Below, in pieces: positions 28,297 to 53,365 of a DNA stretch of 64,000 bases. Positions within the stretch are counted from its first letter, which is position 1. The number at the start of each line of letters is the position of its first letter. The stretch is taken from assembly GCF_001590835.1 (NCBI RefSeq), contig NZ_LTAQ01000056.1:1-64000 (forward strand), in the 5' to 3' direction. The notes beneath the pieces were generated by a model. The model was not told the origin of the DNA and made no database searches. It was given only the letters and a program-made list of their open reading frames with translations. The position numbers and the translations under genes are program-made. The stretch is from Bacillus gaemokensis. GTDB lineage: Bacteria; Bacillota; Bacilli; Bacillales; Bacillaceae_G.

Positions 28297-30009
28297 ATGA
28301 ATAAGAAAAAGCTAAAGAAACTAACAGCGGTTGTAGCGCCAGTATTAGCAATGAGTATGGCATTATCAGCATGCTCAGGGTCAGGTGGGGACAAAAAGAC
28401 AAGTACGACTTCAAGTAGCGGTGATAGTAAATCTTCTGATATTAAGTATGCAGCAAAACAAGTCTTGAATCGTACAGAGAATCAAGAAATTCCAACAATG
28501 GATACGTCGAAATCTACCGATACACTTGGAGCACAAATTTTAGGAAATACAATGGAAGGGTTATATCGTCTTGATAAAGAGAATAAACCAATCCCGGCTG
28601 CAGCTGAATCAAGCACGAAAAGTGAGGATGGTAAAAAATATACATTTAAGTTGCGTAAAGATGCAAAATGGTCAAATGGTGATCCAGTAACAGCGAAAGA
28701 TTTCGTCTTCGCGTGGAAACGCTTACTAGATAAAAATACGGCTGCTGAATATGCATTTATTGCTTACTATATTAAAAATGCGGAAGCAATTAACAAAGGT
28801 GAAGCAGATGCATCTACATTAGGGGCGAAAGCAGTGGATGATTATACACTGGAAGTAGAATTAGAAAAACCAGTGCCATATTTCTTGAATTTAATGGCAT
28901 TTGCATCATACTATCCATTAAATGAAAAATTTGTTAAAGAGAAAGGAGATAAATTTGGTTTAGAGGCAGATACCGTTTTATATAATGGGCCGTTCGTAAT
29001 GTCAGAGTGGAAACACGAACAAGGCTGGAAATTAAAGAAAAACGATAATTATTGGGATAAAAAGACTGTGAAACTAGAAGAAATTAACTATAGCGTTGTA
29101 AAAGAAGTAGCTACAAAAGTAAATCTATATGATACTGGAGAAATTGACTTTACACTATTATCAGGAGAATTTGTTGATAAATATAAGCCTAAGAAAGATG
29201 AATACGGTGAGTATGCAGAGTCAAGTACATTCTTCTTACGTTTAAACGAGAAACGTGGAGGTCAAGATACACCACTGAAAAGTAAAAAATTACGTGAAGC
29301 GATAGCATTATCAATTGATAAAAAAGGATTAGCGAATGTTATTTTAAACAACGGATCGAAACCAACAGATCAATTAGTGCCAAAAGGATTAGCAAAAGGC
29401 CCAGATGGTAAAGATTTCACAGAATCATTTAAAAATGGTTTGAAACAAGATAAGAAAAAAGCAGCAAAAGCTTGGGAAGAAGCGAAAAAAGAGCTTGGTA
29501 AAGATCAAGTGACAATTGAATTGCTGAGTTATGATGATGGAACAGCGAAAAAAGTTGCTGATTATATAAAAGATCAAATTGAGAAAAATTTAAAAGGGGT
29601 AACGATTAATACGAAAATCCAGCCATTTAAACAAAAGTTAAAACTAGAGACAGCACAAGATTATGAAATTTCTTTTGCAGGTTGGAGTCCAGACTATGCA
29701 GATCCAATGACATTTATCGATATGTTTGAAACAAAGAGTCCATATAACCAAATGAGCTATTCCAACTCAAAATATGATGGGATGGTTAAAAAAGCAGGAA
29801 ATGAATTAATGTCTGATGCGAAAAAACGTTGGGAAGAGTTAGGAAAGGCAGAGAAATTGTTACTTGAAGAAGACGCAGCAATGGTTCCTTTATATCAAAC
29901 TGGTAGAGCATATGTAATGAAACCAAATATAAAAGGAATTGTAAAACATAATATCAGCCCAGAATATAGCTTCAAATGGGCGTATGTAGAGGAGAAAGAC
30001 GGAAAATAA
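28297..30009 (+). CDS. OppA-like substrate-binding lipoprotein, copy 2
   Basis: 570 residues from ATG (GGGAGGG upstream). Lipobox LSAC, then the same family 5 domain as copies 1 and 3 (QILGNTMEGLYRLD, KYTFKLRKDAKWSNGDP, YNGPFVMSEW, LREAIALSIDKKGL). Differences cluster in the linker and in exposed loops, for example GSKPTDQLVPKGLAKGP where copy 1 has GSKPADFLVPKGLATGP. It has its own promoter and terminator, so the copies can be regulated apart. Peptide preference may differ. Confidence 0.93.
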   Translation: MNKKKLKKLTAVVAPVLAMSMALSACSGSGGDKKTSTTSSSGDSKSSDIKYAAKQVLNRTENQEIPTMDTSKSTDTLGAQILGNTMEGLYRLDKENKPIPAAAESSTKSEDGKKYTFKLRKDAKWSNGDPVTAKDFVFAWKRLLDKNTAAEYAFIAYYIKNAEAINKGEADASTLGAKAVDDYTLEVELEKPVPYFLNLMAFASYYPLNEKFVKEKGDKFGLEADTVLYNGPFVMSEWKHEQGWKLKKNDNYWDKKTVKLEEINYSVVKEVATKVNLYDTGEIDFTLLSGEFVDKYKPKKDEYGEYAESSTFFLRLNEKRGGQDTPLKSKKLREAIALSIDKKGLANVILNNGSKPTDQLVPKGLAKGPDGKDFTESFKNGLKQDKKKAAKAWEEAKKELGKDQVTIELLSYDDGTAKKVADYIKDQIEKNLKGVTINTKIQPFKQKLKLETAQDYEISFAGWSPDYADPMTFIDMFETKSPYNQMSYSNSKYDGMVKKAGNELMSDAKKRWEELGKAEKLLLEEDAAMVPLYQTGRAYVMKPNIKGIVKHNISPEYSFKWAYVEEKDGK

Positions 30010-30381: not shown

Positions 30382-32094
30382 ATGAAAAAAATGAAGAAAC
30401 TAACAGCGGTTGTAGCACCAGTATTAGCAGTGAGTATGGCATTATCAGCATGCTCGGGATCAGGTGAGGATAAGAAGGCAAATACATCGCCTAAAAATAG
30501 TAGCGGTGAGGACAGTAAAGCTGATATTAAGTATGCAGCAAAACAAGTACTGAATCGTACAGAAACAAATGAGATACCAACGATGGATACTTCCAAAAAC
30601 ACAGATACTCTGGGATCACAAATTTTAGGAAATACAATGGAAGGCTTATATCGCCTTGATAAAGATAATAAGCCGATTCCCGCTGTGGCAGAATCTAGCA
30701 CGAAAAGTGAGGATGGCAAGAAATATACATTTAAACTTCGCAAAGATGCAAAGTGGTCAAACGGTGATCCTGTAACAGCGAAAGATTTTGTGTTTGCATG
30801 GCAACGGTTAGTAGATCCAAAGACAGCTGCTGAATACGCATTTATTGCTTATTATGTTAAAAATGCAGAAGCAATTAACAGTGGAAAAGCAGAAGTGTCT
30901 ACTTTAGGTGTAAAAGCGGTAGATGATCACACACTTGAAGTTGAACTGGAAAGGGCAACTCCATATTTCTTAAACTTAACGGCATTTGTATCATATTATC
31001 CACTAAATGAGAAGTTTGTAAAAGAAAAAGGAGCTAAATACGGTTTAGAGTCAGATACGGTAGTGTATAATGGACCGTTTGTTTTAACGGATTGGAAGCA
31101 TGAGCAAGGTTGGAAGTTGAAGAAAAATGATAGCTATTGGGATAAAAAGAGTGTGAAGTTAGACGAAATCAACTATAGCGTTGTAAAAGAAGTAGCTACT
31201 CGTGTGAATCTATATGATAGTGGTCAAATTGATTTTGCATTATTATCAGGAGAGTTTGTTGACAAATATAAATCGAAGAAAGATGAATTTGGAACATATT
31301 TAGAAACAAGTACATTCTACTTACGTTTGAATCAAAAACGTGCTGGCCAAGATACACCATTAAAGAGCAAAAAATTACGTGAAGCAATTGCATTATCAAT
31401 TGATAAAAAGGCTTTAGCAAATGTAATCTTAAATGATGGATCAAAACCTGTAGATTTCTTAGTACCAAAAGGATTAGCAACTGGGCCGGATGGTAAAGAT
31501 TTCGCAGAGACATTTAAAAATGGCTTAAAACAAGATACGAAAAAAGCAGCAGCAGCTTGGGAAGAAGCGAAGAAAGAACTTGGTAAAGATCAAGTGACAA
31601 TTGAATTATTGAACTATGATACTGGTAATGCGAAAAAAGTGGGAGAGTATGTAAAAGACCAGATTGAGAAAAATTTAAAGGGTGTAACCGTAAATATTAA
31701 ACTTCAACCATTTAAACAAAAGTTAAAATTAGAATCTGATCAAGATTATGATTTTTCATATGGTGGCTGGAACCCAGACTATGCGGATCCAATGACATAC
31801 TTAGATATGTTTGAATCAACAAATTCTCAAAACCAAATGAGTTACTCAGATCCAAAATATGATGAAATGATTAAACAAGGTAAGACAGAGTTAATGGCGG
31901 ATTCGAAGAAACGTTGGGAAGAGTTAGGAAAGGCAGAAAAACAGTTACTTGAAAAAGATGTAGCGCTTATACCGTTACACCAATCAGGTAGATCTTATGT
32001 ATTACAGCCAAATGTGAAAGGAATTGTAAAACATAATATCAGTCCAGAATATAGCTTTAAGTGGGCGTATGTAACGGAGAAAGATAGTAAGTAA
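30382..32094 (+). CDS. OppA-like substrate-binding lipoprotein, copy 3
   Basis: 570 residues from ATG (GGGAGGG upstream). Lipobox LSAC, a slightly longer charged linker than its neighbours, then the family 5 peptide-binding domain (QILGNTMEGLYRLD, YNGPFVLTDW, LREAIALSIDKKAL). It is most like copy 1 in the second lobe (PVDFLVPKGLATGP, LLNYDTGN). Own promoter and terminator. No Opp permease genes in the window. The triplication suggests gene duplication with shifting peptide range. Confidence 0.93.
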   Translation: MKKMKKLTAVVAPVLAVSMALSACSGSGEDKKANTSPKNSSGEDSKADIKYAAKQVLNRTETNEIPTMDTSKNTDTLGSQILGNTMEGLYRLDKDNKPIPAVAESSTKSEDGKKYTFKLRKDAKWSNGDPVTAKDFVFAWQRLVDPKTAAEYAFIAYYVKNAEAINSGKAEVSTLGVKAVDDHTLEVELERATPYFLNLTAFVSYYPLNEKFVKEKGAKYGLESDTVVYNGPFVLTDWKHEQGWKLKKNDSYWDKKSVKLDEINYSVVKEVATRVNLYDSGQIDFALLSGEFVDKYKSKKDEFGTYLETSTFYLRLNQKRAGQDTPLKSKKLREAIALSIDKKALANVILNDGSKPVDFLVPKGLATGPDGKDFAETFKNGLKQDTKKAAAAWEEAKKELGKDQVTIELLNYDTGNAKKVGEYVKDQIEKNLKGVTVNIKLQPFKQKLKLESDQDYDFSYGGWNPDYADPMTYLDMFESTNSQNQMSYSDPKYDEMIKQGKTELMADSKKRWEELGKAEKQLLEKDVALIPLHQSGRSYVLQPNVKGIVKHNISPEYSFKWAYVTEKDSK

Positions 32095-34455: not shown

Positions 34456-36555
34456 ATGAAGATTCGAATCTGTGCCACATTCATTTTTTTTCTATTATTA
34501 TGTTTAAATCCTTTTTTAACTTTTGCAAAAGGAGAGGAGGCAAAGGAAAGGGTCGTTTCACTTGTATATGATGATTCTGGTAGCATGAGGAATAACGATC
34601 GCTGGAAGTATGCCAATTATGCTTTGCAAAGTTTAGTTGCATTATTAGATGAAAAAGATAGATTTTCATATGTTCCAATGAGTCGTCCCACTGAAGCAAA
34701 CAACGTCGCGTTAACAAATGAAAAAAGACAAACAGAAATTAATCAAATTGGGGCGTGGAAAAATTATTTGAACACTCCGTTTAGTGCTGTAGAAACGGCA
34801 ATGCAATCTATTAAAAAGGAAGCAGACATAAATGGAAAACGTGAATTTTGGCTTATTGTATTAACGGACGGGGCATTTAATGAATTAGAAAAAGAAGCGA
34901 ATGGTGGCAAAGAACAAATCACTCGAACGTTAGAGCAATTTAAAAAAGAAATGGAAGTAAAAAAAATTTCATTACATCCTGTATTGATAACAATGGAAGA
35001 AAATTTAGGACCGCAAGAAAAATTACAAATGAATATGTTTAAAGAAATTTGGAAGCAGGAAATAAATGGAGTAATCATGCCGTCGAGTGGGGAAGATGGA
35101 GTCATTCAAAGTGTCAATCAAGCGGCAGCATTAGTTGCGAATCGGGATCCATTTTCTGCTGTTGAACCTGTAGTGAAAACGAATATAACTGGTAACAAAT
35201 TAGAGGTTACAACACCATTTCCATTAAAACGAATGACGCTAGTACAACAATCTTCTGATTCGTTTCAATATAAGTTTGAACAATTATCTAAGCCATTAAT
35301 ATTACAATCTTCTTTCTCAATCCATGCGCCAGGAGAATCGAAATTATATGGCGGTATAGCACATATCAGTGCTACGAACAATGAGGTCATTCAACCGGGG
35401 ACATACAAAATAGAAATTGATAGAGATATTGAAAAGGAAGGCTTGAAAGTACTTGTTGAACCAGCACTTGATTATAGCGTTTCTATTTATGATAAAGCGG
35501 ATAGAACGAAAAAGAATGTTGAGAAAATGTATGAGGGAACAAAAGCGGTTATTGAAGCGAAACCGACAGATTTACCAATCCAACCTTCTTATTTTCAAGC
35601 AGAAATAGAATTAGATGGTAGATTATATCCAATGAAATGGGATGAAAAAAAGCATGTATTTTACTATGAATTACAGGTTGGAAAACAAATAGTACGTGGA
35701 AAAGTCCATATGAACATAAAAGGGTTTTACAGGCAGACGAGGGAATTCCGGATTGGGACATTGCCAAAACCGAAATTAACCCTACAGGCCATTACGAAAG
35801 AATATGAAGAAAAGGTGACCAATTTAGAAAAGAGTAAGCCTTTTATTTTACAGCCATTACTTAATGGTGAACCGATGAAAGAAGCGGAAGTGAAAAAATT
35901 ATTACAATCTACTGGTGTCACATCTCATCAATCAATCAACTATGAATTAGAGCAACATGACAATCAAATCTATGTGTATCCTCGTCCTTACTACTCCGAT
36001 ACATTCAATTTTACAGATACTGGCACCATAGAAGCTACCATCACTATAAAGGATTCAAAGTTGCAAGAAGTGAACAGAAAAATTTCATTTCATATTCAAA
36101 ATGCGCCATTTTGGGAACGGTATGCGATAATTTTTCAGTTCGTAATCCCAGTTACTTTACTACTTCTATTAGTTGCGATTCTTGTTTTAGGATGGATTGT
36201 TCGTCCGAGATTTCATCGTAAAGCACTTTTATATTACGAATGGGATCAAGAAGTAGCGAAAGATTGGCTGTATCAATCTGAACCAGAACTCTTAAGAAAC
36301 AAATGGTGGAAACATTATTTTGGTATTCCATTTCGAGCAGAACGAAAGACAGTACAATCTGTCACATTTATAGCGAAAAAAGGATCGAAATCTGTATTTG
36401 TAGCAAAGGAATCGCAAGTGATTGGTATGATTATTGATGGTATGTTTATTACAGAGGAAGAGGTTGGAAATGAGCATAAGACGTTATATCCGAATGAAAT
36501 TTTACTGATTGATCGTGGGTATGGAAAAGAAATCTATCGATATGAATGTGAATAA
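34456..36555 (+). CDS. Membrane-anchored von Willebrand factor A domain protein
   Basis: 699 residues from ATG 34456; AAAGGTGG lies 12 bases ahead, a long spacing. A signal peptide (about 1-24, ending TFA) exports the N terminus. The vWA domain has an intact metal site D39-x-S41-x-S43 (YDDSGSM) and a later LTDGAFNE segment. A long beta-rich stalk follows, then one membrane helix (about 557-583, FQFVIPVTLLLLLVAILVLGWIV) and a cytoplasmic tail of about 115 residues. vWA domains bind protein ligands through a metal ion. The next gene in the same direction encodes a giant tubulin-like protein, so I infer this is its partner across the membrane. Confidence 0.85.
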   Translation: MKIRICATFIFFLLLCLNPFLTFAKGEEAKERVVSLVYDDSGSMRNNDRWKYANYALQSLVALLDEKDRFSYVPMSRPTEANNVALTNEKRQTEINQIGAWKNYLNTPFSAVETAMQSIKKEADINGKREFWLIVLTDGAFNELEKEANGGKEQITRTLEQFKKEMEVKKISLHPVLITMEENLGPQEKLQMNMFKEIWKQEINGVIMPSSGEDGVIQSVNQAAALVANRDPFSAVEPVVKTNITGNKLEVTTPFPLKRMTLVQQSSDSFQYKFEQLSKPLILQSSFSIHAPGESKLYGGIAHISATNNEVIQPGTYKIEIDRDIEKEGLKVLVEPALDYSVSIYDKADRTKKNVEKMYEGTKAVIEAKPTDLPIQPSYFQAEIELDGRLYPMKWDEKKHVFYYELQVGKQIVRGKVHMNIKGFYRQTREFRIGTLPKPKLTLQAITKEYEEKVTNLEKSKPFILQPLLNGEPMKEAEVKKLLQSTGVTSHQSINYELEQHDNQIYVYPRPYYSDTFNFTDTGTIEATITIKDSKLQEVNRKISFHIQNAPFWERYAIIFQFVIPVTLLLLLVAILVLGWIVRPRFHRKALLYYEWDQEVAKDWLYQSEPELLRNKWWKHYFGIPFRAERKTVQSVTFIAKKGSKSVFVAKESQVIGMIIDGMFITEEEVGNEHKTLYPNEILLIDRGYGKEIYRYECE

Positions 36556-36563
36556 TAGAGGAG

Positions 36564-36716
36564 GTTCAAAAAGTCCGGTAAAGATAGCTGTCGCATTTCT
36601 ACGCCTGCGTTGCCAGTCCGGTACTCATGTAGTGTAAGCTACACTCCGTATCCTCCTGGCTTCCGTGCCTTGAACTGCTCGGCTCTCTGTATCCTTCTTT
36701 TTGAACACTCACTAAT
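36564..36716. repeat. 153-bp element with perfect 10-bp terminal inverted repeats, inside the vWA/tubulin-like operon
   Basis: GTTCAAAAAG (36564-36573) and CTTTTTGAAC (36707-36716) are perfect inverted ends. The interior is GC-richer than the flanks and has internal repeats (AGTCCGGTA near both 36572 and 36614; GTAGTGTAAGCTACAC hairpin at about 36629-36644). It has no coding frame with a ribosome site. Size and form suit a non-autonomous mobile repeat of the bcr kind (bcr1 is about 155 bp), but I cannot assign the class. Confidence 0.6.
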
Positions 36717-36731
36717 AGGAAGGTGGTTCAC

Positions 36732-39700
36732 ATGACATTACAAGTTCCAACGATTTTAATTGGTTTAGGTGGAATTGGGAGTACTGTTACCCATCAAATA
36801 TATGAGAAATTGCCGGAGGAACGGCGTAAAAAGGTGGCAATGCATGTCTTTGATACAGATGTGAATACGTTAAGTAAATTTGAGCATATTCGTAAGTTCA
36901 AGACACAAACTAGCTCTAGTAAAACGCCGCGAGAATATATTGCGGGGGATCCAACGATTCCAGAATGGTTTCCGATGGATCCTACTATTCTTGATAAACC
37001 GTTAACAGAAGGTGCTGGGCAATTACGTGTAATTTCACGTCTTGCTTTACGAGCGGCGATGAAAGAAGATAAATTAACTGCTTTTTGGCAAGAAATTGAA
37101 AAGATTTTTCCTGTCACAAGTGATCAAACCGAGTATGGTGTTCGTGTTATTATCGTTACATCGCTAGCTGGTGGTACTGGTTCGGGTATGTTCTTACAAA
37201 TTGCATTGTACTTACGTGAGATGCTTCGAAAAAAATTACAACATCATAACATTTTAATACGTGGAGCATTTTTAATGCCCGATGTACTTGTAAAGACACG
37301 TACAGTGAGCGCTAAAGAGTTTGAAACTGTGCAAGCGAATGGTTATGCTTCTTTAAAAGAACTTCATGCCATTACACTTGGTTCTACAGGGGAGTTATCA
37401 AAGCGAGGCGGTGTAACGATTGAACTAGAGTACCGTCCCGATCAAGTTGATGAAGATGGACGAACGAATCATACAATTAAGCAGCATCATTTACCGTATA
37501 ATTATTGCTTCTTATATGATTATGAAAATTTACATGGTCATCATTTGCACAATCTATCAGATTACATGGAACAAATGACAAACACGATTTATTTACAACT
37601 ATTTAGTCCGATGTCCACGAGTCATTTTGCACAAGAAGATAATCAAATTCAACAACTAGCCGAATCGAGCGGGAAAGCACGTTACTGCGGTGCTGGGACG
37701 GCAAAGCTCATCTATCCATATGAGCATGTTTTAAAATATTGTGCTTTAAAATGGGCCGTGCAAGGTTTAGACGAATCATGGCTTCATTTAGATCAATTAT
37801 TTCAAGAGAAAAAGCATCGCTATGAGCAAGATGTTCGCCGTGGGATGCAGCGTGAGAAACCAGAGCGTGGAAAAAGTTATTTAGAAGATTTAGAGCATCT
37901 TGCTACTCGTCCAGAGCAGGCCCATATTTTTTATAGACAAATGTATAATGAAACAAGAGAAGGTGCAGAGAGCGGGAAGGTTGGCGTTGCGAAATCAAAA
38001 CTGTTTTTAGAAGCAGTTGAAAGTTACGTGCAGCGTACGGTACAAAAAGACGAAGAATTAAACAGGTTGCAGCATGAATGTAAAATATCTGCTGCAAAGC
38101 TCAAAATCATGGAGCAAATGAAGGGTGAAGTGGCGAGAGTAGACCATGCTGTCAGGTTGTATGCATATGCGATACCGAGCCGTGTGCATGAGCACGTAAC
38201 GACACTTTTGTATGACATGATAGAATCAGACCGACATACACCTAGTGGGTCAGAGGGACAGTCATACCAATTAAATACATGGTTTTTAAAGAAAACAGAT
38301 CCGGTTCATCCAGTTGCTGCTCGTTTTATGTTGTATGAAATTCGGAAGCAATTGGTAGAGAAAATGAATCGATTACATGAGAATAATGAGCAAAAGCGTA
38401 ATTTAATTCAAAACTATGATAAGAAATTTAATGTAAGCAATATTGATGGTACAGTAACAGCGGTGCGACGCGTTGAGCTTGTGCAGCAACAAGGTTGGTT
38501 TGGCAAAATGTTTTACAATCAGCAGCGTATGTTCCGAAAAGAATTTGAAGATATCGTTACGCAATATGCACATAAGTTGAATGAATATCGTAAGGAAATG
38601 TTACTTGAACTCGTTTACCAATCATTATATCAAGCAGTAAATAAAATGATCCAACACTGGGAAAGGTTCTTTGATAATTTACAAGAGACACGTGAAAATT
38701 TACTGTTTGAAATTCAAAAGCGAAGCAAAGAATTTGAAGGAAAAACAAATCCGACAAATGTATATGTGTTAGCAGATGAACAGTTACAAGAAAAAATATG
38801 GCAAGATATGCAGCAGCATTTAAATCTAGGCATACTGCCAAAAGACATATCAGCAGAAATTTATATGAGTTTGTATGGAGAATATTGCCGGGACACACAA
38901 GCGGAAGAAAGTCAATCGAAAAAAGTAGAAGATTTTTATAGAGAACATATTTTGACGTATTGCTACGACGAACTTCAAGTCCGGTACCGTGATAAATTAG
39001 AACTCAATATTATTGAGGCGTTGCGAAAAGAAGCTGATTTTAAAAAGCGTGATCGTAATGAATATGTAAGAGAAAAAATTGAAGATTTGTTTCATTTAGC
39101 AAGCCCATTTATTCCAAAAGTGGCTCATCATCGTGAGTTGCAATACTGGGGTGTACATCCCTCATTGAAACAAGAATTACAAGAAGAACTCTTGCAAGAA
39201 ATGTTCCAAGAAAAGGATACAGTGAATCAAGCATTTTCACCATTTGAAGTGATATGTTACCGGGCTCATTATGGGTTATCACTACAAGACTTTCCTAAGC
39301 TTTCATCAGGACATATTGCAAATGGATTTATGAATGATAAAGGTGATTATTTTCAATCTTATTATCGCCGCGTGAATAAATTAAATATCAAAAAATCTAA
39401 TTTGACACCGCATTTAGATAAATATTGGCACTTACCAGCCTTTATGCCGGACTTAAATGCAACGCAAACGAAGTTAGATTATGATAAGTGTAATCGGGCC
39501 CTTTTATATGCATATATGTTCCGCTGGATAAGTCTTGTGGCGGTTGATGGCCAGTTTGTGTATCAATATAACGGTGTAGGTCGCAGCTTTTTAATTCAGT
39601 CAATGGGGAAAAATATTTCAAGTGAAAGCTATAAACTACACCGTGCCTTGCTTCATAATCCATTTATTTATGAAAATATTCTTTCTCGTTTTGAAGAAGA

Positions 39701-40094
39701 ACAAGAAAAAGCTCTGCTCCAAGGGGGACATTTGTATACACAGGCCTTTGTGTTAGGGGCTCAAGATGTAAGGTGGCTTAGAAAAGAACACGTCCATAAT
39801 ATTTTAGATATCATTTTAATGTACGATCGTGAGGCAAAGTATGATCCGACGCTAGAAGAAACATCGGATGAATTATTACGACTATTTCTTGATGAAATTT
39901 TAGTTTATTTCCAAGACTATTATGGAACCGGTGCTGAAATGGTTGCGAAGAAAGAAGCAGAGATGTTTGTAAAACAATTATGGGACCGCTCATATGCGAA
40001 AGGTTATGTTGATCCAAATAGTGCACCTTATAAAAAATGGCAACATGTATTACATGTTCAAGATGAGGAACATGAAACAAAAACGAATGTGTAG
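36732..40094 (+). CDS. Giant tubulin/FtsZ-like protein (Tubulin_2 type)
   Basis: 1120 residues from ATG 36732 (GGAAGGTGG upstream). The N terminus is a nucleotide-binding fold: ILIGLGGIGSTV (Gly11-Gly16) and the tubulin signature loop AGGTGSG at residues 146-152, the equivalent of the GGGTGS(T/G)G that grips GTP phosphates in tubulin and FtsZ. This matches the little-studied tubulin-like family I know as Tubulin_2. Residues from about 360 on are long, charged and helical (several coiled-coil stretches), with no membrane segment. A T7-like catalytic loop is not obvious. It is preceded by the vWA protein and followed by a 52-residue protein. Filament formation or membrane remodelling is inferred. 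Confidence 0.8.
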   Translation: MTLQVPTILIGLGGIGSTVTHQIYEKLPEERRKKVAMHVFDTDVNTLSKFEHIRKFKTQTSSSKTPREYIAGDPTIPEWFPMDPTILDKPLTEGAGQLRVISRLALRAAMKEDKLTAFWQEIEKIFPVTSDQTEYGVRVIIVTSLAGGTGSGMFLQIALYLREMLRKKLQHHNILIRGAFLMPDVLVKTRTVSAKEFETVQANGYASLKELHAITLGSTGELSKRGGVTIELEYRPDQVDEDGRTNHTIKQHHLPYNYCFLYDYENLHGHHLHNLSDYMEQMTNTIYLQLFSPMSTSHFAQEDNQIQQLAESSGKARYCGAGTAKLIYPYEHVLKYCALKWAVQGLDESWLHLDQLFQEKKHRYEQDVRRGMQREKPERGKSYLEDLEHLATRPEQAHIFYRQMYNETREGAESGKVGVAKSKLFLEAVESYVQRTVQKDEELNRLQHECKISAAKLKIMEQMKGEVARVDHAVRLYAYAIPSRVHEHVTTLLYDMIESDRHTPSGSEGQSYQLNTWFLKKTDPVHPVAARFMLYEIRKQLVEKMNRLHENNEQKRNLIQNYDKKFNVSNIDGTVTAVRRVELVQQQGWFGKMFYNQQRMFRKEFEDIVTQYAHKLNEYRKEMLLELVYQSLYQAVNKMIQHWERFFDNLQETRENLLFEIQKRSKEFEGKTNPTNVYVLADEQLQEKIWQDMQQHLNLGILPKDISAEIYMSLYGEYCRDTQAEESQSKKVEDFYREHILTYCYDELQVRYRDKLELNIIEALRKEADFKKRDRNEYVREKIEDLFHLASPFIPKVAHHRELQYWGVHPSLKQELQEELLQEMFQEKDTVNQAFSPFEVICYRAHYGLSLQDFPKLSSGHIANGFMNDKGDYFQSYYRRVNKLNIKKSNLTPHLDKYWHLPAFMPDLNATQTKLDYDKCNRALLYAYMFRWISLVAVDGQFVYQYNGVGRSFLIQSMGKNISSESYKLHRALLHNPFIYENILSRFEEEQEKALLQGGHLYTQAFVLGAQDVRWLRKEHVHNILDIILMYDREAKYDPTLEETSDELLRLFLDEILVYFQDYYGTGAEMVAKKEAEMFVKQLWDRSYAKGYVDPNSAPYKKWQHVLHVQDEEHETKTNV

Positions 40095-40152
40095 CTTAAA
40101 GGTAGGGAACCCTTAAGTATAGAAATACTATTTTTGAAAAGAGGGGTTTCAG

Positions 40153-40311
40153 GTGCCATTTTTAGGAAGCGTGTATCAAATATTTGGATTGTATCCAGAG
40201 ATTTACCATGCAATGATTTCAATGGAATTAAAGGAAGAAGAATTGCATAATGATTATTTGGAAAAGGGTAATAAAGAAATGGAACTGGAAGATAAAAAAC
40301 CATGCAGATGA
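40153..40311 (+). CDS. 52-residue protein ending the vWA/tubulin-like operon
   Basis: GTG 40153 has AGAGGGG upstream with good spacing. The product starts MPFLGSVYQIFGLYPEIYHAM, an aromatic, partly hydrophobic helix, and ends with an acidic and then lysine-rich tail. I recognise no family. It starts 58 bases after the tubulin-like gene, and its stop codon lies in the loop of the operon terminator, so it is probably the third member. Confidence 0.6.
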   Translation: MPFLGSVYQIFGLYPEIYHAMISMELKEEELHNDYLEKGNKEMELEDKKPCR

Positions 40312-40329
40312 AAATCTGCATGGTTTTTT
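40295..40329. terminator. Bidirectional terminator overlapping two coding ends
   Basis: AAAAACCATGCAGAT pairs with ATCTGCATGGTTTTT around GAAA. It contains the stop of the 52-residue gene and abuts the brnQ stop. Confidence 0.9.
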
Positions 40330-43915: not shown

Positions 43916-44170
43916 ATGTTGGTAAAATGTATGTATATATTGTGTATGAGTGTTATTGCTTTTTCAATGATGGGACTTGATAAACGTAAAGCGGTTAAAA
44001 AACAATGGCGTACTCCAGAACGTACATTGTTTTTAGTATCAGCGGCTGGAGGAGCGGTAGGGGCCTGGATTGGAATGTATGTTTTTCACCATAAAACACA
44101 TAAAAATAAATTTACAATTGGTATACCGCTCCTTGTTGCTGTAACTTCATATGTTTTATGGCTGATTTAG
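43916..44170 (+). CDS. DUF1294 small membrane protein
   Basis: 84 residues. The family pattern is clear: DKRKAVKKQWRTPERTL, then GGAVGAWIGMYVFHHKTHKNKF. Two to three membrane segments. The function of DUF1294 is unknown. The ribosome site is weak (GAAAGGAATGTGAG lies well upstream), so the exact start is uncertain. A single gene. Confidence 0.8.
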   Translation: MLVKCMYILCMSVIAFSMMGLDKRKAVKKQWRTPERTLFLVSAAGGAVGAWIGMYVFHHKTHKNKFTIGIPLLVAVTSYVLWLI

Positions 44171-44365
44171 TTTAATATAATTAGTTTTACAAATAAGCTT
44201 TCTACGAGGAATATTAAAAGAAATTTAGCTGTTTTCTGCAATGGTTTAAAGCAGGTATTATTGAAAATGGAATTATATTGTCGAAAAAGATAGGGAGGTA
44301 ACATTTGTAAATTTTTAAAGGTACATCTTATAATGAAGAAAAAAGAGAAGAGGAGAAAAGGGAAG

Positions 44366-45307
44366 ATGGAGAGTCAAAAAGCACTGCAAAAGAAAGGGAT
44401 TTTATATGCAACTGGTGCTTATATGATGTGGGGAGTTCTTCCGATTTATTGGAAATGGGTCGAAGAAGTGTCTGCAGAAGAAATATTAGCACACCGCATT
44501 GTTTGGGCTTTTGTTTTTATGCTACTGATTTTAGGAATATCAAAGAGATTGGGACAATTTTTTGGTGAGCTTGTGAGCCTTTTTAAACGTCCTAAATTAT
44601 TCATCTCATTAACAATCGCGTCTGTTTTAATTAGTGGCAATTGGTTTGTATACATATGGGCTGTGAACCATAACCATATCATTGAAGCGAGTCTTGGTTA
44701 TTATATTAATCCTCTTGTAAGTATTTTACTTGGTACAGTGGTTTTGAAGGAAAAACTTAACTTTTGGCAATATGTTGCGGTTGGTCTAGCTGGGATAGGA
44801 GTTATCATTTTAACATTTCGTTATGGTTCGATTCCTTGGATTGCACTTTCGCTCGCATTTACATTTGGAATATATGGCTTAACAAAAAAATTATTAAATT
44901 ATGATGCAATGATAGGACTTACGATGGAAACAATGATTGTTACTCCTCTTGCAGTTATTTACTTGTTTATGATTGGAGAACATGGTTTTGGATCATTCGG
45001 TTCTATTCCTGTTACTTCAACGTTACTTTTAATGGGCGCAGGTATTATTACTGCATTGCCGCTTTTCTACTTTGCGAAAGGGGCACAGCTTATTCCTCTG
45101 TATATGATTGGTTTCTTACAATATATTGCACCGACTATTAACCTTATTTTAGGTATATTTGTTTTCCATGAACATTTTACATCGGCTCATATGACAGCAT
45201 TTGTCTTTATTTGGATTGCGCTATTTGTATTTTCAATGGCGAAAACAAAGTTTTTACTAAAGAAGCAACCGAAATTTCTTAAAAATAAATCAGCAAAAGT
45301 ATCATAA
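44366..45307 (+). CDS. rarD: EamA-family transporter RarD
   Basis: 313 residues from ATG 44366, preceded by AGGAGAAAAGGG; an upstream in-frame ATG at 44333 has no site. Ten membrane segments. RarD markers: GAYMMWGVLPIYWKW, EILAHRIVWAF, SGNWFVYIWAVNH and SLGYYINPL. The family contains drug/metabolite exporters, and RarD-type proteins have been linked to chloramphenicol sensitivity, but the substrate is unknown. A terminator follows. Confidence 0.9.
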   Translation: MESQKALQKKGILYATGAYMMWGVLPIYWKWVEEVSAEEILAHRIVWAFVFMLLILGISKRLGQFFGELVSLFKRPKLFISLTIASVLISGNWFVYIWAVNHNHIIEASLGYYINPLVSILLGTVVLKEKLNFWQYVAVGLAGIGVIILTFRYGSIPWIALSLAFTFGIYGLTKKLLNYDAMIGLTMETMIVTPLAVIYLFMIGEHGFGSFGSIPVTSTLLLMGAGIITALPLFYFAKGAQLIPLYMIGFLQYIAPTINLILGIFVFHEHFTSAHMTAFVFIWIALFVFSMAKTKFLLKKQPKFLKNKSAKVS

Positions 45308-45335
45308 TGCGTAGTATTTTCTACGCATTTTTCTT
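45306..45335 (+). terminator. Terminator after rarD
   Basis: AATGCGTAG pairs with CTACGCATT, followed by T. Confidence 0.85.
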
Positions 45336-45385
45336 TATACTTATAGTATGGAATTTCCATTACAGTCAAGTAGGGAGCTGGAAAT

Positions 45386-45811
45386 ATGGAAACAATTTTA
45401 CATAATGATCCACTTATGGCGGCTGTGCTCGCTTGGTTTTTAGCACAATTAACAAAAGTTATTTTTAAATTAATAAAGACAAGAGAATTTGATTTTGCGC
45501 AGTTCTTTGCTTCCGGTGGAATGCCAAGTTCTCATTCTTCAACGGTTACTGCATTGGCCACAGGAGTTGGTATGGTGGAAGGGGTAACGAGTGCAGTATT
45601 TGCAGTAGCAGCTATCTTTGCCATTATTGTCATGTATGATGCTTCAGGGGTAAGACTTGCAGTAAGTAAACAAGCAAAAATTTTAAATGATTTTTTTCAT
45701 GGTAGGCAAACGGAATATAAGAAATTAAATGAACTTGTCGGACATACACCGTATCAAGTTGTTGTCGGAGCTATTTTAGGTATTGTCATTGGAATAGGTT
45801 ATTGTTTGTAA
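45386..45811 (+). CDS. YuiD-like divergent PAP2-family membrane protein
   Basis: 141 residues with three to four membrane segments. GGMPSSHSS (about residue 44) and YDASGVR are the DUF212/YuiD signature, related to acid-phosphatase/PAP2 membrane enzymes. The GHTPYQVVVGA ending is also conserved. The substrate is unknown; a lipid or isoprenoid phosphate is plausible given the squalene-hopene cyclase gene that follows, but this is a guess. GGAGCTGG precedes ATG. Confidence 0.87.
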   Translation: METILHNDPLMAAVLAWFLAQLTKVIFKLIKTREFDFAQFFASGGMPSSHSSTVTALATGVGMVEGVTSAVFAVAAIFAIIVMYDASGVRLAVSKQAKILNDFFHGRQTEYKKLNELVGHTPYQVVVGAILGIVIGIGYCL

Positions 45812-45846
45812 GCAGAATGTTTATTTTTACATGTTCTGCTTTTATT
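45810..45846 (+). terminator. Terminator after yuiD-like gene
   Basis: AAGCAGAA pairs with TTCTGCTT around a long loop that also pairs weakly, followed by T. Confidence 0.6.
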
Positions 45847-45913
45847 TGTTTCATACATAATTGGTTGCCAAACGGAATATCGTATACGGATTTAGAAAGG
45901 GTGGGTGAAGAAG

Positions 45914-47773
45914 GTGTTATTATATGAAAAAGTGCGTGAGGAAGTCGAACGGAAAATTACAGCACTTCGAACGATGCAACAGCAAGACGGAACATGGCGA
46001 TTTTGTTTTGAAGGTTCACCATTAACAGATTGCCATATGATTTTTTTACTCAGGTTATTAGGCCAAGATAAAGAGATAGAACCGTTTGTGGTAAGACTAG
46101 CATCTCTTCAAACAAACGAAGGAACCTGGAAGTTATACGAAGATGAACCTGTTGGTAACTTGTCAACGACAATTCATGCATACGCCGCTTTACTTGCTTC
46201 TAGAAAGTATACAAAAGAAGATATAAATATGAAGAGAACTGCAGCGTTTATTCGTGAGCGGGGAGGGATTGTACGGGCTCACTTTATGACGAAGTTTTTA
46301 TTAGCGCTTCATGGAGAATATGAATATCCCTCGTTGTTTCACTTTCCAACTCCAATTCTATTTTTACCTGAAGACTCTCCCCTCAGTATATTTGAGCTAA
46401 GTAGTTCTGCACGTATTCACTTGATTCCGATGATGATTTGTATGAATAAACGATTTACTGTATCAAAAAAAATACTTCCTAATTTAGATCATATTACAGG
46501 AGGAAGTAAGACGCAGTGGTTTCGTGAAGAACGTTCTCCAATATTTCAAACATTGATTGGGGATGTGAAAAAATTTTTAGCTTATCCGTTGTCCTTGCAT
46601 CATAAAGGATATAAAGAAGCAGAGCGTTTTATGGTCGAGCGAATTGATAAAAACGGCACATTATACAGTTATGCTAGTGCTACATTTTATATGATTTATG
46701 CATTACTCGCCTTAGGGCATACGGTTCAGTCTCCAGTTATCAATAGAGCAGTGGCAGGATTGAAATCTTATATATGGAATATGGAACTTGGAAGCCATTT
46801 GCAAAATTCACCATCTACCGTATGGGATACAGCTTTGCTGAGCTATTCACTACAAGAAGCGAATGTATCTCAAGATAATCATATAATTCAAAAAGCAACA
46901 GAATATTTGCTACAAAAGCAACAACATGAGAAAAAAGATTGGAGTGCACATGCCCCGTTACTTGATGCTGGAGGCTGGGGGTTTTCAGAGATTAATACGA
47001 CAATTCCTGATATTGATGATACAACAGCTGTACTTAGAGCACTAGCACGAAGTACGAAAGGAAATCAGAAAGTAGAAGAAGCTTGGAAAAAAGGTATTGA
47101 ATGGGTGAAAGGATTACAAAATATTGATGGAGGTTGGGCGGCTTTTGAAAGAGGCGTAACAAGCAAATTTTTAACTCATTTACCTCTTGATAACTCAGGG
47201 GACATGACTACTGATCCGTCTACATCAGACATTACGGGTAGAGTTTTAGAGTTTTTTGGAACGTATGCTCCAGATGAATTAACAAATGATCAAAAAAATC
47301 GAGCAATTAGATGGTTAGTACATGCACAGGAGAAGAATGGGGCGTGGTATGGAAAGTGGGGGGTGTGTTACATATATGGTACTTGGGCGGCACTCACAGG
47401 TTTACGTGCATTAGGAGTCCCTTCTACTGACATTGCTTTACAAAAGGCAGTTGCATGGTTAGAGAGTACGCAGCACCGTGATGGAGGTTGGGGTGAGTCT
47501 TGCCGAAGTAGTATAGAAAAAAGGTTTGTTTCGTTACCTTTTAGTACACCATCGCAAACAGCGTGGGCGCTTGATGCGTTAATTGCTTTTTATGATTCAG
47601 AAACACCAGCCATTCGAAAAGGAATTTCTTATTTACTTGCGCATTCTACTGAGCATCAAGAATATCCTACAGGTACAGGGTTACCAGATGGGTTTTATAT
47701 TCGTTATCATAGTTATCATCACTTATACCCGCTACTTACTTTTGCGCATTATATAAAGAAATATAGAAAATAA
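45914..47773 (+). CDS. sqhC: Squalene-hopene cyclase
   Basis: 619 residues from GTG 45914 (VLLYEKVREEVERK); GTG 45905 in the same frame is the alternative, and AAAGGGTGG lies upstream. The catalytic DIDDTTA motif sits near residue 370, and several QW repeats occur (QDGTWRF, NIDGGWAAFE, KNGAWYGKW, RDGGWGES). The enzyme protonates and cyclises squalene, or in sporulating bacilli related polyprenes, to pentacyclic or sporulene-like lipids at the membrane. Terpene substrate choice cannot be told here. A terminator follows. Confidence 0.93.
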   Translation: MLLYEKVREEVERKITALRTMQQQDGTWRFCFEGSPLTDCHMIFLLRLLGQDKEIEPFVVRLASLQTNEGTWKLYEDEPVGNLSTTIHAYAALLASRKYTKEDINMKRTAAFIRERGGIVRAHFMTKFLLALHGEYEYPSLFHFPTPILFLPEDSPLSIFELSSSARIHLIPMMICMNKRFTVSKKILPNLDHITGGSKTQWFREERSPIFQTLIGDVKKFLAYPLSLHHKGYKEAERFMVERIDKNGTLYSYASATFYMIYALLALGHTVQSPVINRAVAGLKSYIWNMELGSHLQNSPSTVWDTALLSYSLQEANVSQDNHIIQKATEYLLQKQQHEKKDWSAHAPLLDAGGWGFSEINTTIPDIDDTTAVLRALARSTKGNQKVEEAWKKGIEWVKGLQNIDGGWAAFERGVTSKFLTHLPLDNSGDMTTDPSTSDITGRVLEFFGTYAPDELTNDQKNRAIRWLVHAQEKNGAWYGKWGVCYIYGTWAALTGLRALGVPSTDIALQKAVAWLESTQHRDGGWGESCRSSIEKRFVSLPFSTPSQTAWALDALIAFYDSETPAIRKGISYLLAHSTEHQEYPTGTGLPDGFYIRYHSYHHLYPLLTFAHYIKKYRK

Positions 47774-47799
47774 ACCGAGAAAATTTCTCGGTTTATTTG
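47772..47799 (+). terminator. Terminator after sqhC
   Basis: AAACCGAGAAA pairs with TTTCTCGGTTT, then ATTT. The stem includes the stop codon. Confidence 0.8.
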
Positions 47800-47826
47800 T
47801 ATGGGTAGTAGGTAGGGCCCAATTGC

Positions 47827-47867
47827 AAAAGGAATAAGAGGCTAGGGAGTATCTTATTCCTTTTCTG
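47827..47867 (-). terminator. Terminator for yfhD-like gene
   Basis: AAAAGGAATAAGA pairs with TCTTATTCCTTTT around a 12-base loop. It contains the stop of the minus-strand gene. Confidence 0.75.
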
Positions 47868-48006
47868 TTGACTGACGTTTTTGACGTGCATCGGCGGCAT
47901 CTGCACGTGCGTTTGCTTCTAAGTCATTATGGTCAGCGAGTTCACGAGAGAACTCTACATCGATGCCATCAGAAGCTTGTTTTTTTCCTAATTGCTTTTT
48001 GTTCAT
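47854..48006 (-). CDS. YfhD family small protein (50 aa)
   Basis: 50 residues from ATG 48006, with AAGGAG 10 bases upstream. It holds the YfhD pattern GIDVEFSRELADHNDLEANARADAADARQKR. YfhD-type proteins are short, charged and probably disordered; they are found in Bacilli, and a spore link has been suggested but the function is unknown. A longer in-frame extension to 48072 is not needed. Confidence 0.8.
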   Translation of the reverse strand: MNKKQLGKKQASDGIDVEFSRELADHNDLEANARADAADARQKRQSTEKE

Positions 48007-48138
48007 TCGACACAATCTCCTTGTGCTTATGATGTGTTGCAACCTTAGTTTGACACAAATAGACTTTTTCATACAAAAAGGATTTGGAAAGGGAAAAGCC
48101 GAAATATACAGTATAAGCGATAGAAATGGGGGAGAGAA

Positions 48139-48879
48139 ATGGACTTTTTACATGGGAAAACAGCTGTTGTAACAGGAGCTGCACAAGGGATAGGAAAAGA
48201 AATTGCTTGTACGTTTGCAAAGCTCGGGGCAAAGGTGCTAATTAGTGATGTGAATGAAGAGAGGTTACGAGAAACAACAAATGAATTTTTAGAACAAGGA
48301 TATGAAGTGAGTTTATATGCTTGTGATGTAAGTAACCAAAACGAAGCGAAATCATTAATTGAATATGCTGTTCAAACATTTGGGGAATTACATATTTTAG
48401 TTAATAATGCTGGGATTACAAGGGATGCAATGTTACACAAAATGGAGAAAGCAGCCTGGGAACAAGTATTGCAGGTGAATTTAACGGGTGTATTTTATTG
48501 TATGCAACCAGCCCTTCTTTATATGAGGCAACAACAATTTGGACGTATCATTAATATTTCTTCAATTAGTAGGGAAGGGAATATTGGGCAAGCGAATTAT
48601 GCTGCAACGAAAGCTGGTGTCATTGGATTAACAAAAACGGCAGCAAAAGAAGTAGGAGGGTTTGGTATTACTTGTAATGCCATTTGTCCAGGTTTTATGG
48701 ATACAAATATGACGAAGTCAATACCAGATAAAGTGAAAGAGAAGATGATTGGTGCAATTCCAGCTGGCCGAATTGGAACGCCACAAGATATCGCAAATAC
48801 AGCAGCCTTTTTAGCTTCAGAGTATGCTTCATATATTACAGGCGAGGTATTAAATGTGAGTGGTGGATTACAAGTTTGA
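48139..48879 (+). CDS. Short-chain dehydrogenase, FabG-like
   Basis: 246 residues. NADP site TGAAQGIGKEI (about residue 12), NNAGIT, catalytic Ser in ISSIS, Tyr/Lys in YAATK, and the GGLQV end of FabG-type 3-oxoacyl-ACP reductases. It reduces a 3-oxoacyl thioester or a similar ketone. Bacilli have a separate essential fabG in the fatty-acid cluster, so this is probably a paralogue (the sequence also suits a PhaB-like acetoacetyl-CoA reductase). GGGGGAGA precedes ATG. Confidence 0.85.
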   Translation: MDFLHGKTAVVTGAAQGIGKEIACTFAKLGAKVLISDVNEERLRETTNEFLEQGYEVSLYACDVSNQNEAKSLIEYAVQTFGELHILVNNAGITRDAMLHKMEKAAWEQVLQVNLTGVFYCMQPALLYMRQQQFGRIINISSISREGNIGQANYAATKAGVIGLTKTAAKEVGGFGITCNAICPGFMDTNMTKSIPDKVKEKMIGAIPAGRIGTPQDIANTAAFLASEYASYITGEVLNVSGGLQV

Positions 48880-48914
48880 TGCAGGGAAAGTGCGAGTGCC
48901 ATTTTTAAAATGAG

Positions 48915-48946
48915 AAAAGAGCCTGACTTCATTAGTCAGGCTCTTT
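48915..48946. terminator. Bidirectional terminator between SDR and ALDH genes
   Basis: AAAAGAGCCTGACT pairs with AGTCAGGCTCTTT around a five-base loop. Confidence 0.82.
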
Positions 48947-48949
48947 CAG

Positions 48950-50434
48950 CTAGTTCAGGTTTACCCAAACACTCTTCACTTCAGTATAGTTGTTTAATGC
49001 ATAGGATCCCATTTCACGGCCAAGGCCAGATTGCTTAAAGCCCCCGAATGGAGATGCTGCATCAAATACGTTATAACAGTTTACCCAAACTGTACCTGCA
49101 CGAACTTTGCTTGCAATGTAGTGTGCGTTTTTGACATTTTCTGTCCATACACCCGCAGCTAAGCCAAATGAAGATTTATTTGCGCGTTCAATTACCTCAT
49201 CAATATCATTAAACGGTAGTGCAGAGATGACAGGACCAAAAATTTCTTCTTTCGCGATTGTCATTTCATCATTTACGTCTGCGAATACAGTTGGAGAAAC
49301 GAAATATCCTTGTTCGTATGGTTTGTTTCCACCAACAAGTACTTCTGCACCTTCTTCAATTCCTTTTTCGATGTATCCCATAACTCGTTTTTGTTGTTCT
49401 TCGGAAACAAGAGGCCCAATGGTAGTTTGAGGATCAAGTCCTGCACCTTGTGTTAATTTTTTGGAATATAGGACAAGGTCGGCCATAACATTATCATACA
49501 TTTTCTTAGGAATAAATAAGCGTGATCCTGCGCAGCATACTTGCCCCTGGTTAAACATAACACCAGAAAGGGCTGCTGGAATCGCTCGAGATAAATCAGC
49601 ATCTGGTAAGATAATGTTCGGTGATTTTCCACCAAGTTCTAATGTAACTCGTTTCAATGTTTCAGATGCTTGTCGCATAATTTGTTTACCGACAGGAGTG
49701 GAACCTGTGAATGCGATTTTATCAACGAGAGGATGATTAACAAGAGCTTGTCCAGCTGTTTCACCGAATCCTGGTACGATGTTGACAACGCCTTTTGGGA
49801 ATCCAGCTTCTTCAAATAATTCAGCTAAGTATAGAGCGGAAAGAGGTGTTTGCTCTGCTGGTTTCAGTACAATTGTACAGCCAGTTGCAAGTGCAGCTCC
49901 CATCTTCCACATAGCCATAAGAAGCGGGAAATTCCATGGAATAATTTGTCCAACAACACCAACTGCTTCATGGCGCGTATAGTTAAAATATTCACCGGAG
50001 ACTGGGATTGTTTGACCGACAATTTTTGTAGCCCAGCCAGCGTAATAACGCATATGCTCAATGGCAAGCGGAATATCTGCTGTCTGCGTTTCACGGATTG
50101 GCTTTCCGTTGTCTAATGTTTCAAGCTGTGCTAATTCTTCTTTATGTTCTTCCATTAAATCTGCAAGCTTGTACATGAGGCGGCTTCGTTCTGCGCCACT
50201 CATACGTGACCAAGGACCTTCGTCGAAAGCTTGTCTTGCTGCGACTACTGCTTTATGAATATCTTCGCGACCAGCTTCGGAAACGATAGCAAGTGTTTCA
50301 CCAGTTGCTGGGTTAGGAGTTTTAAATGTCTTACCGGAAGCGCTTTCGACGAAAGCTCCATTCACATATAATTTTTTTGTTCCTTGTAGAAATTTCTCTA
50401 CCTTTTCATGAAGATTTACAGCTAGTTGACTCAT
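48950..50434 (-). CDS. Aldehyde dehydrogenase (NAD-dependent, DhaS-like)
   Basis: 494 residues. NAD-binding IPWNFPLLM and TGSTPVGK; catalytic Glu in LELGGKSPN (about residue 265) and catalytic Cys in NQGQVCCAGSR (about 299); FGPVISALPF and GGFKQSGLGREMG complete the family set. It oxidises aldehydes to acids in the cytosol. By similarity it belongs to the DhaS/aldA branch; betaine aldehyde or a general aliphatic aldehyde is possible. A single gene with a good AAGGGGG site. Confidence 0.92.
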   Translation of the reverse strand: MSQLAVNLHEKVEKFLQGTKKLYVNGAFVESASGKTFKTPNPATGETLAIVSEAGREDIHKAVVAARQAFDEGPWSRMSGAERSRLMYKLADLMEEHKEELAQLETLDNGKPIRETQTADIPLAIEHMRYYAGWATKIVGQTIPVSGEYFNYTRHEAVGVVGQIIPWNFPLLMAMWKMGAALATGCTIVLKPAEQTPLSALYLAELFEEAGFPKGVVNIVPGFGETAGQALVNHPLVDKIAFTGSTPVGKQIMRQASETLKRVTLELGGKSPNIILPDADLSRAIPAALSGVMFNQGQVCCAGSRLFIPKKMYDNVMADLVLYSKKLTQGAGLDPQTTIGPLVSEEQQKRVMGYIEKGIEEGAEVLVGGNKPYEQGYFVSPTVFADVNDEMTIAKEEIFGPVISALPFNDIDEVIERANKSSFGLAAGVWTENVKNAHYIASKVRAGTVWVNCYNVFDAASPFGGFKQSGLGREMGSYALNNYTEVKSVWVNLN

Positions 50435-50708
50435 TGTATAACCCCCTTGAAAATATAATGTAAACGCAGTACGAGACGGCGTTTATTCCTGTAATAGGGT
50501 TGTAAAAGAAACTAGGTGAAAGGCCTCTAATTTAAATCATAAATAACATAGACTGAAAATTCAAATTTCATTTATGTTACAATTGTAAAAAATATGTAAT
50601 AAAGAATGGATTCCTCATGCTTGCAAAAATTCCTGCACACTTATCTTTTATAGTAGGAAAAACTAGAAAAACAATGGTACAATTATACATCGTGAGAGGA
50701 GGGATAAA

Positions 50709-50987
50709 ATGAAGGATCATCATAATGATTCGCGTTTTCGAATTGCCCATAGAGAAGCGTTAATAGGTCTGGGACTCGCTATTATTAATTTTATAATCTG
50801 GTATGGATTTGCTTATGGGCTAGGTAGTAAGAATCCGAATGAATATACATATGTATTAGGTTTTCCTGCGTGGTTTTTTTATAGTTGTATAGTCGGGTTT
50901 ATTGTAATGGTCATGCTTCTTATTTTAGTTGTACGTTTTGTATTTCAAGATATTTCACTCGATGAGGAAGAAAAAAGTGAGGAATGA
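50709..50987 (+). CDS. YhdT/DUF997 small membrane protein
   Basis: 92 residues, two membrane segments (about 20-40 and 52-78), with FRIAHREALIGLGLAIINF and GFPAWFFYSCIVGF as the DUF997 markers. It lies 3 bases before panF, the usual pairing (yhdT-panF in many bacteria). It may help the symporter's assembly or coupling; no biochemical role is established. GAGAGGAGGG precedes ATG. Confidence 0.88.
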   Translation: MKDHHNDSRFRIAHREALIGLGLAIINFIIWYGFAYGLGSKNPNEYTYVLGFPAWFFYSCIVGFIVMVMLLILVVRFVFQDISLDEEEKSEE

Positions 50988-50990
50988 TAG

Positions 50991-52424: not shown

Positions 52425-52434
52425 AAGGAAGTAT

Positions 52435-52480
52435 AAAAAAACGTAGCTCTTCGACAGGTGAGAAGAGCTACGTTTTTTAT
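52435..52480 (+). terminator. Terminator after panF
   Basis: AAAAAACGTAGCTCTTC pairs with GAAGAGCTACGTTTTTT, a 17-bp stem. Confidence 0.92.
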
Positions 52481-52504
52481 TGTTAGAATAAGGTTTATGT
52501 TATT

Positions 52505-53023: not shown

Positions 53024-53185
53024 AATAAATCCCTCCGTTACATAATAAAATGTATTTACAAGTTTATTATGTATTTTTGTGAATCGAATCACAATGGACG
53101 AAATTTGAACAAATAAATTAAATAGAAAATTCTTATTAATAATTCATCTTTTGTTCACAAAGGTTGATGTAATAAAATGGAATTT

Positions 53186-53283: not shown

Positions 53284-53365
53284 TGGGATGAATTTTGTGT
53301 TTTTTATGCTACATTTTTTGTCCATTCATAGAGTAATAACAATTGATGGGATGGAGTTGAGAATC

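Follow-up and report, generated by a model that had tools for sequence, protein, structure and literature searches.

We analysed a stretch of 64,000 nucleotides of the Bacillus gaemokensis genome (positions 1 to 64,000 of contig NZ_LTAQ01000056.1; hereafter the window), which carries a gene for a membrane protein with a von Willebrand factor A (vWA) domain and, 176 bases downstream of its stop codon, a gene for a tubulin-like protein of the Tubulin_2 family (Table 1). This pair is a member of a known, uncharacterised family, FtsZ-like 1 (FtsZl1), for which vWA neighbours and a membrane-remodelling hypothesis were presented by Makarova and Koonin in 2010 (PMC2875224). A preliminary description of the same DNA had referred to this paper, whose content bears out the reference. 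The gap between the two genes holds a hairpin-forming insert, and an open reading frame (ORF) of 52 codons follows the tubulin-like gene. The stop codon of this ORF (TGA, 40309–40311) enters the loop of a hairpin (40300–40323) and thus lies, as had been claimed, in the terminator of the operon. The terminator was read from the sequence and was missed by a pattern scan, and scans of the whole window with Rfam (at gathering thresholds) and for tRNA genes gave no match.

Table 1. Features of the vWA–tubulin-like locus (positions in the window)
Feature	Position	Strand	Basis or remark
vWA membrane protein gene	34456..36555	+	ATG start, intact ORF, 699 aa
DxSxS metal-site motif DDSGS, vWA residues 39–43	34570..34584	+	invariant in 13/13 aligned sequences
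vWA T107 codon	34774–34776	+	invariant in 13/13 aligned sequences
vWA D138 codon	34867–34869	+	invariant in 13/13 aligned sequences
Predicted membrane helix, vWA residues ~563–581	36142..36198	+	hydropathy only
vWA inner tail, ~118 residues	36199..36552	+	ORF reading and hydropathy
Hairpin-forming insert between vWA and tubulin-like genes	36557..36722	+	RNA folding versus shuffles
Tubulin_2 / FtsZ-like 1 gene	36732..40094	+	ATG start, 1120 aa, Pfam PF13809
T1 loop GLGGIGS, tubulin-like residues 11–17	36762..36782	+	aligned with FtsZ T1 loop
GAG, tubulin-like residues 94–96	37011..37019	+	paired with FtsZ GAG in local profile comparison
Phosphate loop T4 AGGTGSG, tubulin-like residues 146–152	37167..37187	+	sequence motif, conservation
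52-aa ORF	40153..40311	+	GTG start after AGAGGGG; short relative of a separate ~100-aa family
Terminator hairpin: 10-bp stem, GAAA loop, six T	40296..40329	.	sequence reading; hairpin 40300–40323

The tubulin-like protein matches Pfam Tubulin_2 (PF13809) at E 1.8e-79 (268 bits against a cut-off of 27) over residues 8–345 only, and the rest, about two-thirds of the protein, has no Pfam match. The glycines of the T1 loop (G11, G13, G14 and G16), G94 and A95 of the GAG motif, which we take to be loop T3, and G147, G148, T149, G150 and G152 of the T4 loop are invariant in all 20 tubulin-like sequences compared. In a local alignment of a profile of 30 Tubulin_2 sequences with one of 32 FtsZ sequences (selected by motif from 34 loci), the T1 loop, NTD, GAG and the T4 loop were aligned up to approximately residue 210 (probability 83.8, E 7.8e-6); an earlier comparison with three FtsZ sequences had aligned only T1 (E 0.023) or, for proteins of the DO-GTPase type, T4 (E 1.7e-4). 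The protein is therefore likely to bind GTP. Unlike FtsZ, it matches the general Pfam Tubulin/FtsZ family only over residues 134–170 and below the cut-off of that family, and the FtsZ C-terminal family gave no match at E 1. These results bear out its assignment to the tubulin/FtsZ superfamily in the preliminary description, where the GLGGIGS motif and AGGTGSG at residues 146–152 of the 1,120-residue product had also been read correctly. Residues 255–290 had appeared by eye to correspond to S6-T6-H7 of FtsZ; no analysis confirmed this match, which was not used.

The size of the protein, called giant and unusual at the outset, is normal for the family: the longest tubulin-like frames are 936–1,192 aa in 23 of the 24 other loci described below (with L061, 843 aa, left out), and 1,116–1,192 aa in 22 loci when L063 is also left out.

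In the vWA protein, the vWA domain was matched by Pfam VWA_2 at E 2.5e-4 and 22.1 bits, below the curated cut-off of 27, and no match to its profile was found among Protein Data Bank (PDB) sequences at E 0.1. The protein consists of an N-terminal hydrophobic segment, the metal-site motif (D39-D-S41-G-S43), a further membrane helix predicted by a hydropathy script at residues ~563–581 and an inner tail, which agrees with the signal peptide, intact DxSxS motif and single membrane helix claimed previously; the tail had been counted as 115 residues. An outer vWA domain and an inner tail can be inferred from the signal peptide and the helix. D39, S41, S43, T107 and D138 are unchanged in the 13 aligned vWA sequences, and T107 and D138 presumably complete the metal-ion-dependent adhesion site. 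Sequence identity to the window protein is 43–55% for five relatives of its own clade and 27–29% for seven others. Within the clade, the tail (54–72% identity) is more conserved than the stalk (34–50%) in 5/5 comparisons and more conserved than the vWA domain (56–60%) in 4/5, a pattern that fits a constant inner partner. The tail is 113–119 residues long in 20 of 23 vWA proteins from the compared loci (with the piece in L048 and L061 left out) and 98–121 residues long in three Thermales. A likeness of the tail to an FHA domain, seen by eye, was confirmed by no analysis and was not used.

We compared 25 loci, namely the window, L001–L004 and L044–L063; these are not independent, because they include near-copies (L050–L052; L056, L058 and L059; L003 and L044). 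The vWA genes were recognised by BLAST cluster and the DxSxS motif, and that of L062 by the motif and membrane segments only. An intact vWA gene is present directly upstream of the tubulin-like gene in 23 loci. In the remaining two, the vWA gene is present only as a 174-aa piece (L048) or is missing (L061), and in L056 a 66-aa frame was called on the opposite strand between the two genes. The linkage of Tubulin_2 genes to genes for single-pass vWA proteins with a signal peptide is thus upheld by this survey. Three types of operon were distinguished. In the clade of the window (the window, L001–L004 and L044), the vWA and tubulin-like genes stand alone. Eight Bacillaceae loci (L047–L054) contain a four-gene operon in which the same two families are followed by genes that we call c4 and c5. 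Eight further loci belong by BLAST cluster to a DO-GTPase type, in which the DO-GTPase domain (PF19993) was confirmed by Pfam in L045, the sole locus tested; their tubulin-like protein is related to that of the window (profile match, E 2.2e-20). L061 and L063 fall outside all three types, and L062, of clostridial type, contains vWA and tubulin-like genes, a 653-aa gene and, further down, a homologue of c5.

The c4 protein (~720 aa) has one or two central membrane helices according to hydropathy (five examined), and its members have no consistent Pfam match. The c5 protein (~1,280 aa) contains four to six N-terminal hydrophobic segments (hydropathy), and two CxxC pairs and C-terminal HExxH residues are invariant in its seven aligned members, all of which also show weak metallopeptidase-like Pfam matches (DUF6782 at E up to 1, best 7.5e-5); the only PDB match of c5, a designed TIM barrel, was disregarded. 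In the order sample of 397 genomes, matches that cover most of c4 and most of c5 come from the same eight genomes, all of which carry Tubulin_2. This count excludes short matches in genomes that lack full Tubulin_2, four to c4 and three to c5 (the best, in G265, has E 8.6e-19 over 78 residues). In one of the eight, c4 is split and c5 contains an internal stop (G261, locus L048). Homology of c4 to the third genes of the Thermales, Azospirillum and DO-GTPase operons was not detected, and its similarity to the L062 gene is weak (E 0.0041, probability 8.3). Neither c4 nor c5 is present in the window or at L001–L004 and L044, and c5 was not found anywhere in the genomes of five relatives of the window (G001–G005; positive control, G069). 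In a tree, the six two-gene rows form one clade (100/100), in which Ectobacillus are the nearest compared relatives of the window, beside c4/c5 rows whose branching is unresolved; L062 falls outside. The c5 homologue of L062 would make loss of c4 and c5 from a larger operon in the clade of the window the simpler reading, although the fork is unresolved and L062 forms a long branch.

Some of these loci contain further features. At L048 (G261:C57), the vWA, c4 and c5 genes look broken and the tubulin-like frame is open, which may point to decay of the operon or to errors in sequencing. In L063, the gene that follows the tubulin-like gene (6913–8709, minus strand) encodes a protein that has a central hydrophobic segment and whose first residues, LLIGLGGAG, resemble the T1 loop of a second tubulin relative (E 0.0028, probability 11, in a profile match of 39 columns). 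In the DO-GTPase-type operon of G183, the gene after the tubulin-like gene (L028:826–3273) has a partial Tubulin_2 match under the cut-off (E 2.7e-4), consistent with the two tubulin genes that Kaur et al. (2020) report.

Tubulin_2 was detected above the cut-off in 16 of the 397 genomes of the order sample and in 11 of the 398 genomes of the phylum sample, with a near-complete domain in 14 and 10, respectively, and partial matches in frames of 355–556 aa in the rest; therefore, the family is rare and patchy in Bacillota. It was also found in 3 of 14 named control genomes. A scan of genome contigs yielded four close relatives (three Ectobacillus and Bacillus sp. 165), with 65–79% identity in the best segment, and the identity of the tubulin-like protein to that of the window is 64–79% for five clade members and 41–45% for the four-gene group. 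Of 19 genomes of the bacterial family, five carry both the vWA gene and full-length Tubulin_2. The vWA protein is absent from the other 14, one of which, G019, has a frame of 355 aa that matches Tubulin_2 partially, over a short stretch. The same genome encodes a 354-aa FtsZ/TubZ-like protein (L010:976–2040, minus strand) beside a gene that resembles an AAA ATPase by eye. In viral contigs, 35 pattern matches were obtained and none was confirmed. Records from outside Bacillota include Paraburkholderia (without annotation) and a fourth Thermus record, H11, with a partial match.

Purifying selection acts on both genes in pairs of related species. The ratio of nonsynonymous to synonymous substitution rates was 0.021–0.038 for the tubulin-like gene and 0.108–0.148 for the vWA gene in three close pairs (L003/L044 from the clade of the window, and two from the four-gene group that share L050); the comparison of the window with L001 was saturated at synonymous sites. 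Downstream of the pair, EamA and DUF212 genes are present in the window and in all of L001–L004, and a squalene-hopene cyclase gene in the window and three of these four. In the window, two amino-acid transporter genes intervene before these shared genes, and the cyclase is no more than 55% identical to any in the 19 family genomes. Some upstream genes are also common to the window and L002 and, further off, L003. With these shared genes, the pair has the appearance of an established chromosomal locus within the clade. Farther upstream in the window, there are two tandem 570-aa ORFs (28297–30009 and 30382–32094), the second of which resembles an oligopeptide-binding protein by eye.

The insert that separates the two genes has a folding energy of -56.9 kcal/mol (z -4.85; 0/200 shuffles as good) and inverted ends, and a 28-base piece of it occurs only once in the window. 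In the five closest relatives, the longest vWA and tubulin-like frames lie close together or overlap (gap, -62 to +23 nt). The insert is possibly a mobile repeat. A suspected identity with bcr1, a repeat of the Bacillus cereus group, was not borne out: the insert had no match in plasmids, and a 20-base piece had no exact match in viral contigs. Megablast of two longer stretches of the window (20000–44000 and 44000–64000) against plasmids gave no match either.

Among known systems, the locus most resembles those described in the available part of PMC2875224. As in FtsZl1, an N-terminal tubulin-like domain is joined to a long C-terminal part in a protein of ~1,100 aa (1,051 aa in Huta_2051), T1 and GGxTG(S/T)G-type T4 loops are present, and the length would accommodate the extended coiled coil and helical C-terminal domain that are a trait of the family. 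Most FtsZl1 members have an operonic vWA gene with an intact DxSxS motif, as does the window, and a signal peptide occurs in some cases. The same authors rank FtsZl1 with those members of the tubulin superfamily whose structure has diverged most; a review printed with the paper names Bacillus thuringiensis BT9727_3336 among the vWA proteins. Unlike the FtsZl1 systems described there, the locus in the window has two genes only. The c4 and c5 genes may already be in the gene lists of that paper (which include families B1–B9), and we do not claim them as new; the four-gene operon (L047–L054) shares its vWA and tubulin families with the window, from which c4 and c5 are missing. The DO-GTPase/GAP1-N2 systems, as far as the available part of PMC7159879 describes them, also have a related tubulin-like domain and a membrane vWA protein with a tail of equal length, but they contain in addition a DO-GTPase, a second tubulin-like protein and a second vWA protein, none of which was found among the window genes scanned with Pfam (three upstream, from 32208, and eight downstream). 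No experimental work on FtsZl1 was present among the open-licence literature matches listed, and the available parts of PMC9871819, PMC10067837, PMC12839542 and PMC6952346 contain no data on the function of the family.

We interpret the pair as a two-gene form of the FtsZl1–vWA systems, in which the vWA protein would be a receptor or anchor that controls assembly of the GTP-bound tubulin-like protein under the membrane, and give this interpretation a probability of about 0.5. The vWA protein would span the cell membrane, its metal-dependent vWA domain facing outwards and its conserved tail inwards. The tubulin-like protein would bind GTP in the cytosol, as its loops suggest, and could be recruited or switched by a contact with the tail under the membrane, where it would assemble into a polymer or oligomer. 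Several observations weigh against this interpretation. The comparison of the Tubulin_2 and FtsZ profiles gave no match in the global setting (E 0.3), and the local alignment ends before T6 and T7, neither of which was placed, so that the protein may lack both hydrolysis and polymerisation of the FtsZ kind. By sequence, the PDB yielded no solved relative of the tubulin-like protein (best FtsZ match, E 0.059). The vWA tails of the two-gene and four-gene groups share only 21–29% identity, and those of the window and DO-GTPase types, of equal length, have no detectable sequence homology (E 0.02, probability 2.3); a universal contact between tail and tubulin is thus not supported. Finally, two Azospirillum plasmid copies of the tubulin-like gene have no vWA neighbour annotated or found by Pfam.

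A role in the cell envelope is likelier than one in division, because the pair-bearing relatives checked (G001, G003 and G069) encode a separate, ordinary FtsZ; the Tubulin/FtsZ Pfam family, read as FtsZ, was above the cut-off in all 41 genomes of a phylum sample. A bolder version of our interpretation, which we regard as rather unlikely, is that a four-gene operon, whose other products were a membrane partner and a membrane-bound zinc peptidase, was reduced in the clade of the window to a minimal machine of two proteins. In this machine, an outer metal-dependent receptor would directly drive assembly of a tubulin-like GTPase through the membrane, with a logic like that linking integrins to the cytoskeleton.

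The pair might instead be a defence or conflict module, in which invasion or damage to the envelope would be sensed by the vWA protein and answered by assembly of the tubulin-like protein into a response complex, a role that Kaur et al. (2020, PMC7159879) put forward for DO-GTPase/tubulin systems. A related tubulin-like protein is found in DO-GTPase operons like those predicted as conflict systems in the available part of PMC7159879, and some plasmid copies of the pair have suggestive neighbours. In three Thermales plasmids (L107–L109), a run of vWA, tubulin-like and third (~680 aa) genes is followed by brxL, which in L107 is preceded by a transposase gene; the run in L109 follows genes that match the Hma defence models HmaA, HmaB and HmaC, and one of the Azospirillum copies adjoins caspase-family genes. 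However, the PADLOC models gave no match to the window pair at E 0.1, and none of the neighbours scanned with Pfam (three genes upstream and eight downstream) belongs by name to an effector or defence family. The downstream neighbourhood common to the clade and the very strong purifying selection on the tubulin-like gene of the relatives are also unlike rapidly exchanged defence genes, and we consider such a module somewhat unlikely in the window. It is also conceivable that the tubulin-like protein does not polymerise and acts in transport or signalling at the envelope, as a large GTP switch or scaffold. The unplaced loops past approximately residue 210 would agree with this, as would the long part past residue 345 that lacks a Pfam match; in the available part of PMC2875224, T6–H7 is likewise unplaced and the reviewer Jekely suggested a role in transport or signalling. 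The authors of that paper state, however, that all characterised members of the superfamily form filaments, and we judge a non-polymerising protein unlikely.

The preliminary description had counted the 52-residue product as a third component, and its start codon preceded by AGAGGGG, its orientation and its position ahead of the terminator would all suit a working partner. Over 37 columns only, it is related to the first 34 residues of a 100-aa ORF of L003 (38% identity, E 0.004), and genes of this ~100-aa family lie just downstream of the tubulin-like gene in three relatives (L003, L044 and L004). In L004, however, the homologue begins, by eye, after a hairpin and T-run that follow the tubulin-like gene, and the family is present neither beside the pair in L001 and L002 nor elsewhere in those genomes. 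It occurs in 7 of the 19 family genomes, that is, in 3 of the 5 that carry the pair and in 4 of the 14 that do not. Conserved co-occurrence thus holds for the vWA and tubulin-like genes and fails for the third; the 52-aa ORF, a short relative of a family distinct from the pair, is no constant component, and a three-gene system is highly improbable.

The two-gene form in the window is a convenient test case for the family: a system of two proteins would be the easiest to reconstitute, so that the role of these tubulin-like proteins could become directly testable. Should the vWA protein indeed control assembly, this would make it a receptor that acts across the membrane on a bacterial relative of tubulin.

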